DNA of 64,000 bases from Spirosoma endbachense. Its GTDB lineage: Bacteria > Bacteroidota > Bacteroidia > Cytophagales > Spirosomataceae. Both the position numbers and the translations under genes were made by a program. Shown one piece after another: positions 18,769 to 25,935 of the stretch (positions are counted from its first letter, which is position 1; each line of letters begins with the position of its first letter). The stretch spans positions 310,001 through 374,000 of the forward strand of contig NZ_CP045997.1 in assembly GCF_010233585.1 (NCBI RefSeq), in the 5' to 3' direction. The notes below the pieces were generated by a model, which was not told where the DNA came from, did no database searches, and saw only the letters and a program-made list of their open reading frames with translations.

Positions 18769-18819
18769 ATGGTTTCTCGTAACAGACTAGAAAGTTCCTG
18801 GGCTGTTACGAGAAACCAT
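18769..18819. terminator. 17-bp perfect hairpin after the hydrolase gene
   Basis: ATGGTTTCTCGTAACAG (18769-18785) pairs exactly with CTGTTACGAGAAACCAT (18803-18819) around a 17-base loop, 14 bp after the hydrolase stop. No T-run follows, so it may be an mRNA 3'-end stabiliser or one of the locus-specific palindromes seen elsewhere rather than a standard terminator. The AT-rich stretch at 18820-19060 shows nothing coding. Confidence 0.5.
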
Positions 18820-19064
18820 TCGATTCGTAGGAATCTAATTTAAGCCATTGAAAGTAAAGGCGAAATCCAGGGACTAATTAAAAAAAACATAAAGTCTGAT
18901 TGTCAATGACTTATGGCTTTGTCTATAGACTTAAAGAAGTAATACTGCTATCGATAGGCTTGCTGAGAAAATTAAATTAAAATATATAAGTAATTGATTT
19001 ATAGTTAATTAACTTAATAAGTTTAGATGTAGTGAAAAAAATCTATTAAATTTATAGATCAAGC

Positions 19065-19096
19065 TTGGAAAAGTAAATTTAGAGACTTTATCTTTG
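19065..19096 (+). promoter_or_regulatory. Promoter of the SAM riboswitch transcript
   Basis: TTG at 19065-19067 and TATCTTTG at 19089-19096 fit the Bacteroidota promoter (TTG, 21-bp spacer, TAnnTTTG). The riboswitch begins about 37 bp downstream, a sensible position for a transcription start in between. Confidence 0.6.
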
Positions 19097-19133
19097 AGCC
19101 GTCTTACACTTACTACCTGCAAAGTAGCTGTGG

Positions 19134-19231
19134 ATTTATACCGAAAGGGGGAGAGACAGGCTCACTGAACCCTTAGCAACTTGCCCATTGGCGATAGTGC
19201 TAACCTGCCTACTTCGTTAGGAACTATAAAT
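19134..19231 (+). promoter_or_regulatory. SAM riboswitch (S-box / SAM-I type)
   Basis: P1 closes as ATTTATA (19134-19140) with TATAAAT (19225-19231). Between them are conserved S-box segments: GGGGGAGAGACAGGCTC (P2/internal loop), CTGAACCCTTAGCAAC (the usual 'tGAAgCCcgGCAACC' region), a TGCC-catt-GGCG hairpin (P3), AGTGCTAA (the usual 'GGTGCTAA') and a closing CCT/AGG hairpin. The order and spacing match the family. It binds S-adenosylmethionine and normally switches off methionine or sulfur-assimilation genes. A good promoter lies upstream, but no intact gene follows on this strand for more than 6 kb. Confidence 0.85.
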
Positions 19232-19242
19232 TTACAATCGTT

Positions 19243-19314
19243 ATGTCTACGCTAGATTCATTTCAGAGAACCGGGCCAATCCAGGCCCCAGTAGTTGCCC
19301 CCCAGTCCTCCTAA
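19243..19314 (+). CDS. Short ORF directly behind the SAM riboswitch (23 codons), possible ruined gene start
   Basis: ATG 19243 begins a 23-codon frame (MSTLDSFQRTGPIQAPVVAP...) ending at TAA 19312-19314, 11 bp after riboswitch P1. A second ATG overlaps the stop (TAATG, 19314-19316) and opens 19 more codons to TAG 19373. Either this is a natural leader peptide, or, more likely in my view, the first codons of a methionine-pathway gene whose remainder has been lost or shifted. I cannot identify that gene. Confidence 0.35.
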   Translation: MSTLDSFQRTGPIQAPVVAPQSS

Positions 19315-19516
19315 TGCTGTTGCTATTGGTAAATTTCGGAAACTCGAAAGGTATTCACTTATTTTTCAGGTAGTTCAGTCATTTGTTGAGCTCATCATAA
19401 GTTAAACGTTTTGAATATTATCCTATATAATCTATGGGCTTCTGAGAGACGTTCCATTTCTTCCAGCTGGGGACTGCATTGTAAGAGCAGAAAATCAACA
19501 CCGACTTTATATGAAT

Positions 19517-19560
19517 TGGACCAGCCAGGGATTGAACATATTCCAACCCTGGCTGGTCCA
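19517..19560 (+). terminator. 14-bp GC-rich hairpin
   Basis: TGGACCAGCCAGGG (19517-19530) pairs perfectly with CCCTGGCTGGTCCA (19547-19560), followed by TTGATTTTGT. It is placed to end the riboswitch transcript. The 66-codon frame across this hairpin is not a credible gene. Confidence 0.6.
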
Positions 19561-19602
19561 TTGATTTTGTCAGAGTTTATAAACCTTTACTTGGCAACAA
19601 GG

Positions 19603-19642
19603 CACTCGTGATGAAGGTCACTTATACCCTTCATCACGAGTG
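19603..19642 (-). terminator. 15-bp hairpin downstream of the susD-like gene
   Basis: CACTCGTGATGAAGG (19603-19617) pairs with CCTTCATCACGAGTG (19628-19642). It lies 63 bp past the SusD stop codon on the minus strand and is the likely end of the susCD transcript. No strong T-run is seen. Confidence 0.5.
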
Positions 19643-19704
19643 TTACATTTGTACTCTATTTTAACGATAGCGATTTTACTATAAATCCGCTGAATCATCA
19701 TCCG

Positions 19705-21204
19705 CTACAGGTTTGGGTTGTTACTGATCTCATTCAGAGGAATCGGAAAGAGGTAATATTTGCTGTTGGGAACGAACGCCGTTCCATCGGGAAATTTGGT
19801 GATCCAGTGCCCCAAAACACTAACCGTTGCCCCCTTGGTATCGACAAATTTTTCCGATGTTTCCTTTCGTACAGGGGCGGTTTGGGTTCTCAAAATGTCG
19901 TACAGACGGAAACCTTCACCCCAAAGCTCCTTACGACGTTCGAGTAAAATCTCATCGATCAAACTGTTTTTGTCCAGTCCTGCCGACAAATCAGTCAGGT
20001 TTCGTTTCCGTCTCAATTCATTTAACGTTTCTATGGCCCCCTGCAGGTTATTCAATCTTGCTTTACTTTCGGCTTCAATCAGCAGTTGTTCCGACGAACG
20101 CATCAACACAATATGACCCTCATGATTGGGATACTTGTTTCTGAATTTTTTGTAACGGTACCCTCTGTAAAGAGCCTCAGTGGGCTGTTTGGCAATTTCA
20201 AATAACGTTTTGCGGATGTCGTTCGGACTGAACAATGCTATAAAATTCGGATCCGGCATAATGCTATTGTAGCCGTAATAGAGGTTCGTGCCGGCTGCAT
20301 CCGTCGAATACGGCGTTGTTTCGATATAGGCCAGATACGAGGCTCCCCCCAAATTCTGCGTTACTGTTTGCGGATGCCCCCAAATCCATTCAGGATTGCT
20401 TACATCACTGAACCCCTGGATATATTGATCGGCGGTCATAATCGGATAGCCGACACGCGCTTTGGCTGAATAATCCCGGGCCAGTTCCCATTTTTCCTGG
20501 GTCAGGTAAGCGCGGGCAAATAGCCCATATACGACGTTAACGTCGGGGCGATTTTTGACCGAACGCGTGTAGCCGGTTAACAACTTTTCCGCTTCCGTTA
20601 AATCACTGAACACCAGATTGTAGATTTCTTCGACCGTCGCGCGCGGCTTGGGTACTGTACTAGGCGTTGTAGGTTCGGTGTAAATAGGAACGGCTTTCGC
20701 CTTTGGGTCTTTGACGTAGGTAAATTGATACTGCCTCACTAAATTCAGGTAGTTGTTTGCCCGTAGTGCATACGCTTGTCCTTTAAGGTATTTTAAACTG
20801 GGCTTGCTCGTATCGTCGATTTTAATATTAGCAATAATATTGTTGGTATGATCAATCGAGGTGTATTGCAATGTCCAGAAAAACAGAGCGCGCCTTGTCG
20901 TATTATCATACGGATCGCGGTAGGGATACGAATCCCGGAATCCATAGCGGCCGTCCCGGGCAAAAGCATCTTCGCCCATTACATCATGCGTTAAGAAAAT
21001 GGTCGGCAGACCAGGGTTGTCCTGAGACGTGCTGTTTTCCAGCAGAAAGCGGATGGAGCCATTCACAAAAGCGTCAATGTTGGCTTCCGAGGAGAATACC
21101 TCCGGGGTCGTAATCTGGGTTGCCGGAGCAGTCTCAAAGAAGTTGTCGCTGCAGGATGTAAACAAAACCAGAGCAACGAATAAATAACTGAATTTCCGTA
21201 TCAT
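19705..21204 (-). CDS. SusD/RagB family nutrient-binding outer-membrane lipoprotein
   Basis: I choose ATG at 21204 (499 residues) because MIRKFSYLFVALVLFTSC is a clean lipoprotein signal (lipobox LFTSC); an ATG 33 bp upstream would place 11 extra residues before it and overlap the SusC stop. The protein shows SusD features: TPEVFSSEANIDAFVNG, TPR-like helices with LKGQAYALRANNYLNLVRQY, and a C-terminal LIDEILLERRKELWGEGFRLYDILR. SusD proteins sit on the cell surface as the lid of the partner SusC transporter and bind glycans or peptides. The SusC gene is immediately upstream, 19 bp away. Confidence 0.95.
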   Translation of the reverse strand: MIRKFSYLFVALVLFTSCSDNFFETAPATQITTPEVFSSEANIDAFVNGSIRFLLENSTSQDNPGLPTIFLTHDVMGEDAFARDGRYGFRDSYPYRDPYDNTTRRALFFWTLQYTSIDHTNNIIANIKIDDTSKPSLKYLKGQAYALRANNYLNLVRQYQFTYVKDPKAKAVPIYTEPTTPSTVPKPRATVEEIYNLVFSDLTEAEKLLTGYTRSVKNRPDVNVVYGLFARAYLTQEKWELARDYSAKARVGYPIMTADQYIQGFSDVSNPEWIWGHPQTVTQNLGGASYLAYIETTPYSTDAAGTNLYYGYNSIMPDPNFIALFSPNDIRKTLFEIAKQPTEALYRGYRYKKFRNKYPNHEGHIVLMRSSEQLLIEAESKARLNNLQGAIETLNELRRKRNLTDLSAGLDKNSLIDEILLERRKELWGEGFRLYDILRTQTAPVRKETSEKFVDTKGATVSVLGHWITKFPDGTAFVPNSKYYLFPIPLNEISNNPNL

Positions 21205-21223
21205 GGTTGAATAAGCGTTGTCG

Positions 21224-24200
21224 TTAAAATGATACATTTAGAACGGCTGAAACTGATTTTTGCGCAGGATAGCGATAGTAAGTAGACCCTGAAATGGTCT
21301 GTTCTGGATCTAATCCTTTATGCCCGTAAAAAGTCAGCAGGTTATCGCCTACCAAACGTATGGTAACATTGGTCAACGACAGTTGGGATACCAGGCTGCG
21401 AGGCAATGTATACGAAAGGGAGATATTTTTCAGCCGCGCGTAAGTCGCATCATATAAAAATCGGGTAGACGGAATGGTATTCCAGGCGTCAGAAACGTAT
21501 GTGAGACGAGGAAAATTGGTGTTTGTATTTTCCGGTGTCCAGCGAGTGAGGGCCTCTTCCGACCAGGCGCGACCTGGGGCATTGCCAAGATGGGCGATCA
21601 TCGGCTCGTCTCCATCGAAAATTTTACCCCCTATACTATACGCCATCAGGAAGGAGAACTCAACGTTTTTGAACGAAATACTGTTGGTAAATCCGCCGTA
21701 AAAGTCAGGAAGGGAGCTCCCCTGGAAATAAGGAGTGGCTTCAGTTTGATTTTCGGTAGTTGTCCTGCCAGTAACAGTTTTATTGCCGTCCAAAACGTCC
21801 TTATACCAGGTGGCTTTGCCGTTTTGCGGGTTAACTCCCGCCCATTCTTTGATGTAAAAATCGTAAATAGAACCGCCTTCAACCATCTTTTTGGTATTTC
21901 CATACTGACCAATTGCGCCAGTCAGGATTTCTTTCTGCGGCAATTTTGTGATCTTATTGGTGTAGTGCCCAAAATTCAGGGTAACATTCCATCTGAAATC
22001 CTTACTGCGAATGGGTACGCCGGTAATTTGGCCGTCAATACCTCGGTTACTTAATGAGCCGATGTTGTCATCGATTCCACCATAACCGGTTGATGGGGAA
22101 AGCGGTCTGTTAAATAACAGATCTTTTGACTGGCGGTCGAACACATCCAGCTGGGCTGCGATCCGGTTGTTAAACAGGGAAATGTCAACCCCAACATTGA
22201 GATTCAGGTTGGTCTCCCATTTTAGATTCGGTGTGGGAAGCGAAGAGGGTAATAATCCCAGTTTATCCAGGCTGTTGTAAATGGAATAGAATCCGCCGTA
22301 CGCGTAATTGCCGACATTATCATTGCCCTGGGCTCCGTAACTGGCGCGCAGATTGAGGTTATCCAGGTAGGATCTATTTTTCAGGAATTCTTCCTGTTTA
22401 ATATTCCAGGCGGCTCCCACCGACCAAAAATTACCCCATCTGGTTTGTTCACTGAAGCGGGAGGAACCGTCCCGACGATAACTGGTGGAAAAATGGTAAC
22501 GTCCCAGGTAATCGTAATCCAGTTTGGCCAGTCCACTCGCCAACCGGTAATCCGATGATGTTCCATTAAATACGCCACTGAGCGTTCCAGCAGAAGGCTC
22601 GGTTTTTCCCAGAACCTGAAAGCCAGTGCGGCTTCCGGATAAGGAAGAGATGTTATTGACGTAGATCTCAGGACCGGCGAGCAGGCTCAGTGTATGGGCT
22701 CCAGGCAAGTAGACGGAGTAATTCAGGAAGCTATTGACGGTGTAGTTGAGCGTACGGCTTGAGCTTCTGGATGCGGATCCAGCGCCGTCGGTGATTACGC
22801 CCGTGCTGTAATAGGAGTGTGAATAAGTAAGCGAACTACCAGCACGATAATCCACGTTCGCCGTTGTTTTTAAAAACAATCCTTTCAGAAACGTAATGGT
22901 GAAATTGGTTCCGAGCAACACGGCATCCGTCTGATCACCCGATATCGCATTCTCGGCCGAGCCCAGAATATTTGACCCGCTGGCTGCGGTGGTTGGGCGA
23001 TATCTTCCGTAATCCCACTTTTTATTCCCCGCATCATCCAAACTATAGGAACCGTCTGGATTACGTTCGTAAACGGGGTAAATATTCGCTATGAGTCGTT
23101 GGAAATTGGCAAAATTACCGGTGTTACTATCGCTTTGGGTAGGTGATTTTTGAAAACCTGACGACAACGAGATGTTGGCACCTGCTTCAAACCAATTGTT
23201 GACTTTCGATTGTAAATTCGTGCGAAGATTGAAACGCCTGAACTCAGAGGTCCTGATCCAGCCCTGTTCATTTAAATACCCCGCTGAGAGAAAATATTTG
23301 GTTGCAGCACTGCCACCGCTGATGCTGAGGTCATACTGTTGGCGAATTCCCTGACGGGAGATGGCTTTCCCCCAATCATCCGTCCAAAGGGGAGTGGCGC
23401 CTGCGACTAATTTACCGTCCAAACCAATCGGCTTTGGATAATTCGAACCGAAGATATTGACTTTCAGTGAACCATCGACGAGATAGTCTGTCGCATACTG
23501 AGCGGCTACTGCTGCTGTTTTACCCTGATCCAACTGCGTGTTGCGAATGGCCTCCCACTGTAATTCATAATAATCTTTCGCTGACAAATACGCATAATCC
23601 TTCACTGCCCGAGACGTGAAGCCGTAGTTGGCAGAAAAGTTGAACGTAGGTTTTGCATTCAGTGATCCGGATTTGGTGGTAACCACAATCACACCGTTAG
23701 CACCCCGGGAACCATAGAGTGCGCTTGCCGTCGCGTCTTTTAATACCGAGATGGATTGAATATCTCTGGGATTCAAATTATTCGCATTCGCTCCGGGGAT
23801 ACCGTCGACCACATAAAGCGGAGCGGTTGACGCATTGACTGAACCAACACCCCGCACAAACAGATCGGCATCGGCTCCGGGCTGACCTGCCGATGCAATG
23901 GATTGAAGGCCCGGCACAGTTCCCTGTAAGGCTTTGCCAATAGAGGTAATCTGCAGATTTTCAAGGTCCCGTGCGTTGACAACCGATACAGATCCTGTAT
24001 AGCTCGACCGTTTGGCTGTTGTGTAACCAACGACAACGGTCTCGTCCAACTGGTTTGCTGTTTCTGCCAACTGGATGAGGAGTGGTTCCAGGCTAAGGCC
24101 GGTGGTGATTTCCTGGGCTTTATAGCCTAAAAAACTCACCACGAGTGTCAAGGGTAATGATTTAGTGGTCGATAAGCTAAATTTCCCATTTGCATCAGAC

Positions 24201-24400: not shown

Positions 24401-24597
24401 AGGTCCGGCGTGTGTTTGCTTTGGCTGATTTCATAGCACATTTCTGGAATTATACTTACTGTTTGGTTAAAGAGACTTAGGTTAGAATTGGTCGCATGTT
24501 TCATACCTGCGGTAGAGCTTTTGCTTCGGCGCCAATCCGGCGGACCGTTCCGATTTTTCCAGATGGCGATATTAATAGGGTCTTTATGTAAATAATA

Positions 24598-24656
24598 TAT
24601 ATTATCTATAGAATTTATAGATAATATACCTAAACGATTGATTAACCGTTTAGGTA
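24598..24656. promoter_or_regulatory. Two adjacent inverted repeats upstream of susC
   Basis: TATATTATCTATA (24598-24610) pairs with TATAGATAATATA (24616-24628) across 5 bases. TACCTAAACG (24627-24636) pairs with CGTTTAGGTA (24647-24656) across 10 bases. The two elements share two bases. Their place 200-256 bp upstream of the SusC start suggests regulator binding, but no regulator gene is adjacent. A role as a terminator is less likely because no operon ends here. Confidence 0.5.
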
Positions 24657-25935
24657 TGCACCTTTACCAGCGTCTATTTCAAACGCTTACGGATTAAAGT
24701 AGCAGGAAGGGACGAGAGAGTTGACCGACAGTAGCGGACAGGAAAACGAATTATTGGCAGGCAATAAGACCAATACCTACTGATTTGACTAATTGGCTTT
24801 CGAAACGGGGGTAAAGAAGAAGTAGGGATACAGGCATACGTTTGAGTGGTTAGTTTGAGAAAGTTGAATAGTAGTCTTGTTGTTTGATAGGCAAAGGTGA
24901 ATGGTATTTTTCTTATTTACAAGAAAATTAAAGGAAAATTAAAAAGGGCAATTACCTCTAAAACTCTATCGAGAAGTCTCTTTTTGGCTAAAATAAAGGG
25001 TTTTTAAGTTTTTGATAGTACTCTGTCGGCAGATAAAGGAATAGTATAAAACGAATACTGGGTTAATGTGCGCTATATGGATTAACTTAATAGAGTAAAC
25101 TTGCAGAAAATGCGATTATCGAGTTTGGTGTTAATGTCGACGTACCTGCATCGGTAAATGATGTTGCATAATGCCTTGTAAGCTTCCCCGAAAAGTCGTC
25201 AGTAAAAAACAGTTGATTGGTACTTGGTGGAGGAGCACGTGCTGGAATCGGCGGCATGGCTTCGTCCGACATTTGCATTAGGCGTATGCCTTTAGGTTTG
25301 AGCTATGCTATTATTCCAAGGTTGGCTTTGCTGTTCTAGACCAATAGTCGTCGCCTTGGTTTCAGTGCTTACCCTCTTTAATGTACAATGATTCGAATGA
25401 CTTGCAGGTTTCAGCTAAGCAGAACTTAGAGGCTATCGCAACGTCCACCCAAAAAGGCGGTAATAAACAAGGTACTAAAGGAGTTATCGAATTTAAATCA
25501 TTTTTTTAGGAATGTAAAACAGGTTCGGTCAACGAATCCCCTACCATTGAACAACCCTATTCCCCAAGGCCTTAACTGAATTGACGGATGATTGGAAATT
25601 GAGACAGGTAAATTAACTAGTGAACCATTAAATCCTCCTAATTTTGAGAATAAGGGTTTTCAAGTCTCTGCTTCGGGAAACGGGCAATTAATTAAAGCGA
25701 CGGCTCTGTAGCTTGCTAGCAGATGAATTATACCAGTGCGAGGAGCACGCTAAATTGGTCAGAGTCCTAACTGGCCAGTGATGAGTCGATTTGTCCGTTC
25801 ATGCCGCCTTTGCTGTGTTTATTGAAAGTTCGCACGCCACGGGGAGCCCTCCTCAAAATTCACATAGCTTTGGGGATGCTTTGCTAAAGTTTAAACTGAT
25901 TCCAGATTCACTGAAAAAATCCTAAACTTATTCTC
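24657..25935. other. Long gene-poor spacer between susC and the glycosidase
   Basis: About 1.28 kb without a supportable gene. A 42-codon frame at 25381-25509 (plus, starting MYNDSNDLQV) and a 63-codon frame on the minus strand at 25087-25278 are possible but resemble nothing I know and lack clear initiation signals. Several stretches look like eroded coding sequence. The promoter of the glycosidase should lie near 25900, but I see no perfect TAnnTTTG there. Confidence 0.4.

Follow-up and report, generated by a model that had tools for sequence, protein, structure and literature searches.

The window, by which we mean the whole 64,000-nucleotide stretch of the Spirosoma endbachense genome analysed here, carries on its plus strand a SAM-I (S-box) riboswitch aptamer that is followed by a short open reading frame (ORF) and, convergently, by a susD gene on the minus strand (19705–21237), the stop codon of which lies 472 bases past the aptamer end (Table 1). 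No gene-sized plus-strand ORF was found between the aptamer and susD; the longest one before susD has 66 codons and a TTG start (19411–19611) and spans a gene relic and a hairpin. A preliminary description of the locus had noted that no intact methionine gene follows on this strand, and this is borne out. There is no downstream gene for the aptamer to control in cis, the next gene being on the other strand; this bears on function and leaves the identity of the aptamer untouched.

Table 1. Sequence features surrounding the SAM aptamer, in window coordinates
Feature	Position	Strand	Basis or remark
Upstream palindrome AAATCTATTAAATTTATAGATCA, weak candidate operator	19039..19061	.	15 of 19 consensus positions
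Bacteroidota-type promoter: TTG at 19065, TATCTTTG at 19089-19096	19065..19096	+	Cassette alignment
Small 5' hairpin CTAC-CTGCAAA-GTAG in constant 5' element	19113..19127	+	Minimum-energy fold, sequence conserved
SAM-I (S-box) aptamer	19129..19236	+	Longer P1 (12 pairs); core of the Rfam model at 19133-19232
23-codon leader ORF MSTLDSFQRTGPIQAPVVAPQSS, stop TAA	19243..19314	+	Same place as leader ORFs of nine other cassettes
In-frame TGC TGT TGC TAT TGG TAA directly behind leader TAA	19315..19332	+	Cysteine run that most relatives have before the stop
Second palindrome TATCCTATATAATCTATGGGCTT, right half lost	19419..19441	.	14 of 19, against 15-18 of 19 in the nine relatives that supplied the consensus
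Relic VGVDFLLLQCSPQLEEMERLSEA, C-terminal piece of SfnG-like flavin monooxygenase gene	19437..19505	-	DNA identity across 69 bp: 81% with G019, 80% with G035
GC-rich hairpin, possible transcript end	19517..19560	.	-31.8 kcal/mol, z -6.2
Second strong hairpin, behind susD	19602..19643	.	-30.3 kcal/mol, z -7.9

Since the single-sequence fold of 19100–19240 is no better than that of shuffled sequences (z −0.58), the aptamer call rests on the covariance model. The scan with the Rfam SAM model, which the preliminary description had proposed as a check on an S-box-type aptamer placed at 19134–19231, matched RF00162 at 19133–19232(+) with 69 bits (E 5e-14; gathering cutoff 44.4 bits) over the full length of the model (positions 1–108 of 108). 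The lengthened P1 also appears when the window and nine relatives are folded to a consensus; there it is nearly invariant and without covariation support (a double change in only two of the 34 pairs of the fold). Six bases separate the end of its 3' strand (19236) from the leader ATG at 19243. The small 5' hairpin is absent from the centroid of the fold that yielded it and from the consensus fold of ten cassettes.

The genome (10.3 Mb, single contig) contains five SAM hits, one before metH, one before metX (MetX models score below their own cutoffs on the latter gene) and three in near-identical cassettes, including that of the window, the near-identity covering promoter, 5' element and aptamer. 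No decay is visible in the window aptamer: its 69 bits compare with 69.8 and 73.3 in the other two cassette copies, it differs at none of the columns constant in nine other cassettes, and the single letter unique to the window within a 153-bp block is placed in a hairpin loop. The aptamer looks intact and may have retained SAM binding, and the RNA is probably still made.

A search of 36 genomes of the genus gave 72 SAM rows, 71 of them above the cutoff, and the downstream context was inspected for all 72. Ten rows carry the constant 5' element and constitute the cassette type, nine being assigned by an automatic mark and one (G003) by alignment. A pattern search with this element retrieved seven stretches in genome contigs, three of them from Spirosoma. 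Common to the ten cassettes are a -7 box, the 5' element and an aptamer with a 12-pair P1, then a short ORF and, ahead of the gene, a palindrome; the window copy follows this layout up to the palindrome. The targets are SusC-type receptors (four cassettes), YceI (four, one of them broken, in G021) and a class-V aminotransferase resembling cysteine desulfurases (one), while the window has none; family searches covered one SusC, two YceI and the aminotransferase, the other targets being named by likeness. The remaining 62 rows precede metH-, metY- or metX-like genes as far as the printed starts show, with one example of each checked. In the genus, a short ORF, often of 13 codons and of the form MLYxxxCMPxxAY, lies right behind the SAM aptamer at metY/metX loci such as L038, L039 and L078.

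The window is thus the only orphan among the 72 SAM hits of the genus. The one further damaged case is the broken target in G021 (L083), where the YceI-like gene is cut after about 40 codons and a transposase-like frame lies on the other strand; target loss therefore happens in cassettes of this type. The loss of a methionine gene, which had been implied earlier, is probably the wrong reading of the window, as the cassette type precedes SusC, YceI and class-V aminotransferase genes. A lost methionine gene as the default was also rejected because metH and metY/metX carry two other SAM leader types. Identity of the window SusC with other cassette targets was likewise rejected, the protein being only 29–31% identical to the three compared.

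The promoter of Table 1, which we take to be of the Bacteroidota form, has a -7 box of the type TAnnTTT(G/A) in all ten cassettes. A scan for sigma-70 promoters gave chance-level matches only; the 'proper promoter' noted earlier accordingly stands in its Bacteroidota form, with TTG and TATCTTTG, and not as a sigma-70 one. The two palindromes were scored against a consensus drawn by eye from the downstream sites of the relatives. The upstream one is weakly conserved, with 11–16 of 19 positions at the same place in nine relatives. On the plus strand of the window, sites with at least 14 of 19 positions were found by scanning in five places (19039, 19419, 24593, 24602 and 33529), and with up to three mismatches the whole genome has 15 places (nine forward and ten reverse hits, against 0 and 2 in the control). 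The palindrome was rejected as the mark of a regulon, a leader of the cassette kind being found at only two cassette places among the 15. It adjoins an Rrf2 gene in G008 and G020 (the G020 gene identified by Pfam). Rrf2 as its regulator stays a lead: in G019 no Rrf2 gene was seen beside the palindrome, and near the two Rrf2 copies of the source genome no site scored above 13 of 19.

As had been stated in the preliminary description, the leader ORF has 23 codons, lies at 19243–19314 and ends at a TAA overlapped by a second ATG (TAATG). The leaders of the nine other cassettes, counted from the first ATG, range from 12 to 36 codons in length (28 in five cases) and are rich in cysteine near their ends. 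In their last eight codons they contain on average 2.6 cysteines; for 904 small ORFs from these sequences, the nine leaders included, the average is 0.26. None of 20000 resamplings reached the mean of the leaders; the totals are 23 cysteines in frame versus 1 and 1 in the other frames. Two or more cysteines are present in these eight codons in seven of the nine, and one each in G003 and G021. In G003 the first frame has 12 codons and no cysteine run, and a second ATG opens a frame of 29 codons with one late cysteine. The window ORF itself contains no cysteine, and the run is found in frame behind its stop; among 1346 small ATG ORFs (59 loci and the window), no other is followed by three or more cysteines within the five codons past its stop. 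A search of six short peptides against NCBIfam gave no family, and a 251-base DNA query against the 36 genomes found no relative matching the ORF part of the window.

Further downstream, the second palindrome is cut at about 19437, where the inverted relic starts. The preliminary description had overlooked the palindromes and the relic, as well as the cysteine run behind the leader stop. The relic matches G019 and G035 at the DNA level with E values of 1.4e-11 and 4.4e-10, respectively, and is an inverted piece of 23 codons; 22 of its 23 residues are also found in the C-terminal part of the G035 protein, a luciferase-like monooxygenase. For this protein the best NCBIfam name is SfnG (248 bits, below the cutoff of 383), and the Pfam family is Bac_luciferase. 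At E 1e-60, matches to the monooxygenase were found in five of the 36 genomes (four full length, that of G002 partial) and none in the source genome, weaker relatives being unlisted. In G019, G020 and G008 the monooxygenase gene is located behind SusC-, SusD- and ATP-grasp-like genes (the ATP-grasp identity checked for G008), and in G035 and G002 only an ATP-grasp-like gene directly precedes it. The minus-strand order in the window is SusC, SusD, relic. SusC and SusD of the window and of the monooxygenase loci are distant (26–31%), and the shared order is therefore suggestive of common descent but no proof of it.

None of the genes flanking the window cassette has an orthologue in place in the other 35 genomes, and the lost gene therefore cannot be named. 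Among the matches listed elsewhere in the genus, no relative of the window SusD exceeds 36%, and the a/b hydrolase has, among the matches listed, one relative at 70% (G017) and paralogues of its own above 60%. A strong hairpin lies behind the a/b hydrolase gene, at 18769–18819. The GC-rich hairpin that had been proposed to close the transcript at 19517–19560 is indeed strong; it has no U-run behind it and does not figure in the terminator-scan list, and its role as a transcript end is accordingly only possible. From its position, the second hairpin is possibly the end of the convergent susCD transcript.

We consider it the best explanation, with a probability of about two in three, that the target gene was lost by rearrangement and that the window holds a paralogous Spirosoma leader cassette left without its gene. 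All nine other cassettes have a target gene or its remains and the window palindrome is cut at the relic junction, which supports the deletion reading and, with it, the earlier suggestion that the gene under control had been deleted. What we infer from the observed anatomy, homology, junction, relic and lack of a gene is loss rather than original absence, as well as its timing. Being on the opposite strand, the relic need not be the lost target. An intact aptamer would also be expected of a living unit, which speaks against loss.

The cassette normally sits before sulfur-related or uptake genes, and in its complete form it might work as follows. SAM would close the lengthened P1 and thereby hinder ribosome access to, or translation of, the short leader ORF, the direction of this control being our assumption. 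The cysteine codons at the ORF end would let the ribosome sense cysteine supply: on shortage they would be read slowly, and the slow reading of the run would change expression of the downstream gene. The stretch separating leader and gene yielded neither a terminator nor an alternative hairpin, so that the attenuation step is putative. Transcription, cysteine sensing and an operator role of the palindromes are likewise presumed. In the window, a rearrangement at about 19437 would have removed the target gene, cut the second palindrome and left the inverted 23-codon relic of the SfnG-like gene; with the leader ORF now stopping just before its own cysteine run, only a 23-codon frame would be left for the aptamer to switch.

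In order of standing, the next explanation is that the unit is alive without a gene, giving a SAM-controlled short transcript, the RNA or the 23-residue peptide of which acts elsewhere. We regard this as unlikely for the window, but elsewhere in the family the idea is realistic. SAM hits are present in 97 of 101 genomes drawn from it, and we examined 142 loci, 72 within the genus and 70 outside (a part of all family hits). Of the 70, 22 were judged only by an automatic script, which missed two orphans elsewhere. The automatic orphan count flagged 12 of the 142 loci, among which L037, L044, L207, L225 and L188 proved on reading to be false flags and L083 to have a broken target; L194 and L214, missed because of antisense ORFs, were confirmed as orphans. 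No gene follows the aptamer at eight of the 142 loci, the window and seven in another genus, g16 (L194, L211, L214, L217, L220, L223 and L226), where all seven sampled genomes have one such locus each. At six of the seven, a gene for a 162-residue protein lies right behind on the opposite strand (five copies are 75–82% identical to that of G076). G050 has other neighbours, so that the gene-less state in g16 is not tied to one place.

The g16 ORF has 22 codons (28 in G050) and the core RCDPDQDWHL in all seven genomes. Over its codons 8–18 the variable sites number 1, 0 and 7 by codon position, the sole residue change being one Q to H. At all seven loci a hairpin of −19 to −26 kcal/mol (calculated without shuffle control) starts 13–20 bases past the stop. 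Outside g16, a QRCDPDQDWHL core is present in G081, of another genus, in a 29-codon ORF before an M28 peptidase gene, and the leaders of Dyadobacter fermentans and G096 contain the shorter echoes RCCPADIW and KCCPNDKW.

The window ORF starts 10 bases behind the aptamer, the same distance as in g16, and in an ungapped comparison from the Met up to seven further residues match g16-type peptides (shuffle p 0.00085), more than in any of 1062 background ORFs; such a likeness would favour the TAA as a genuine stop and count against loss. However, the comparison was chosen after the data had been seen, three of the 1062 ORFs and one ordinary Spirosoma leader reach six matches, and the sequence likeness is a lead only. 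Only R, P and Q of the core are kept in the window, C, D, D, D, W, H and L being missing, and hence also the C, D, D, W and H common to all seven g16 peptides. Unlike at the g16 loci, no strong hairpin directly follows the window ORF, the best having −10.1 kcal/mol at 19346 (again without shuffle control). The ORF part remained unmatched in the DNA search of the 36 genomes, and the cut palindrome and the relic point to loss. Thus, the earlier proposal of an RNA or short peptide acting on its own is realistic for g16 and finds no support in the window, with its unmatched, cysteine-free ORF. The more far-reaching view, that SAM riboswitches of the family became stand-alone genes whose only product, as in g16, is a conserved cysteine-containing peptide of ~22 residues with a hairpin of its own, and that the window is a living, diverged member of these, we hold to be rather improbable. 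The conserved gene-less unit of g16 is a more surprising result than the window orphan and deserves a study of its own.

It is also conceivable, if distinctly improbable, that only a ~153-bp block arrived here as a copy, through gene conversion or a small insertion, and that no target gene ever existed at this site. The block, which runs from the -7 box to seven bases past the aptamer, agrees at 148 of 153 bp (97%) with the genome's own YceI copy, whereas the adjoining flanks align to it at only 43–44%. The five differences equal in number those between the YceI copy and its counterpart in G004, where the upstream flank is 92% identical to that of the YceI copy. Such near-identity could reflect strong constraint, gene conversion or a late block copy. 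Against an isolated block, the window has outside it a leader ORF, the stop of which is followed in frame by a cysteine run, and a palindrome at the usual distance, and the genome's other paralogues also have unalignable flanks and yet possess genes. That the RNA is an antisense or 3'-end element of the susCD operon, towards which it is convergently directed at the distance given above, is scarcely credible, as two strong hairpins separate it from susD and none of the genus's nine other cassettes has this arrangement.

Leaders of related layout were also encountered with another insert in place of the aptamer or with none. Four Spirosoma loci (L100, the same as L017; L102, the same as L023; L103, the same as L025; and L019) represent a second leader type, which shares the 5' element and has an AT-rich closing stem enclosing a ~100-base insert that has no Rfam match; the three loci with downstream sequence read have a cysteine-rich ORF and a palindrome-like site after the insert. 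This insert is a candidate for a new structured RNA in place of the SAM aptamer. In Dyadobacter fermentans (L105, about 2000–2450), the same 5' element and stem enclose a ~30-base insert replacing the aptamer; downstream come a cysteine-rich ORF of 29 codons, a palindrome scoring 17 of 19 and a SusC-like gene. In the window itself, at 24560–24840 on the minus strand before susC, a 28-codon ORF ending in ACQ and overlapping palindromes show the layout without an aptamer, the cysteine evidence being weak.

The usual view of SAM switches is that they control methionine genes. The position of the cassette, in a soil genus, before a cysteine-run ORF and uptake or sulfur genes suggests a single leader reading both methionine (as SAM) and cysteine supply, of which the window would be a picture after gene loss. 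Should the g16 unit be confirmed, it would represent a riboswitch with a small conserved peptide as its whole output, a metabolite-controlled small protein or a trans-acting leader. Among the titles and abstracts listed from the open literature searched, none deals with a cysteine-run ORF behind a SAM aptamer, and those that combine Spirosoma and riboswitches do not address this subject either.

Among known systems, the window aptamer is a full-length, above-threshold match to the SAM-I riboswitch RF00162, from which it differs in lacking a gene, in having a short ORF as the first item that could be controlled and in a P1 longer than the Rfam core. Short ORFs rich in cysteine codons are also the mark of the mycobacterial polycysteine leader ORFs, by title a cysteine-responsive attenuator (Canestrari et al. 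2020, via PMC9094748); the present ones occur in Bacteroidota, behind a SAM aptamer, and in the window with the run after the stop, and their response to cysteine is putative. The uORFC-8-2 motif before cysS of Rhodobacterales, proposed to act by ribosome-mediated attenuation, likewise has a uORF with tandem cysteine codons, but it belongs to another phylum and gene and has a terminator stem of its own, no SAM aptamer being mentioned (PMC8632094). As for RNAs with functions of their own, SreA of Listeria, a SAM riboswitch RNA, works as a trans-acting small RNA as well; SreA has genes in cis, and for the window RNA no trans target is known (PMC8079631). In Sinorhizobium, the SAM riboswitch leaders RZ and RA accumulate as small RNAs, but they are of the SAM-II class and have genes behind them (PMC9373788). 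Finally, the leader peptide peTrpL of Sinorhizobium has a function of its own in trans; it comes from an attenuator leader without a riboswitch and offers an analogy for the g16 unit only (PMC7298713).
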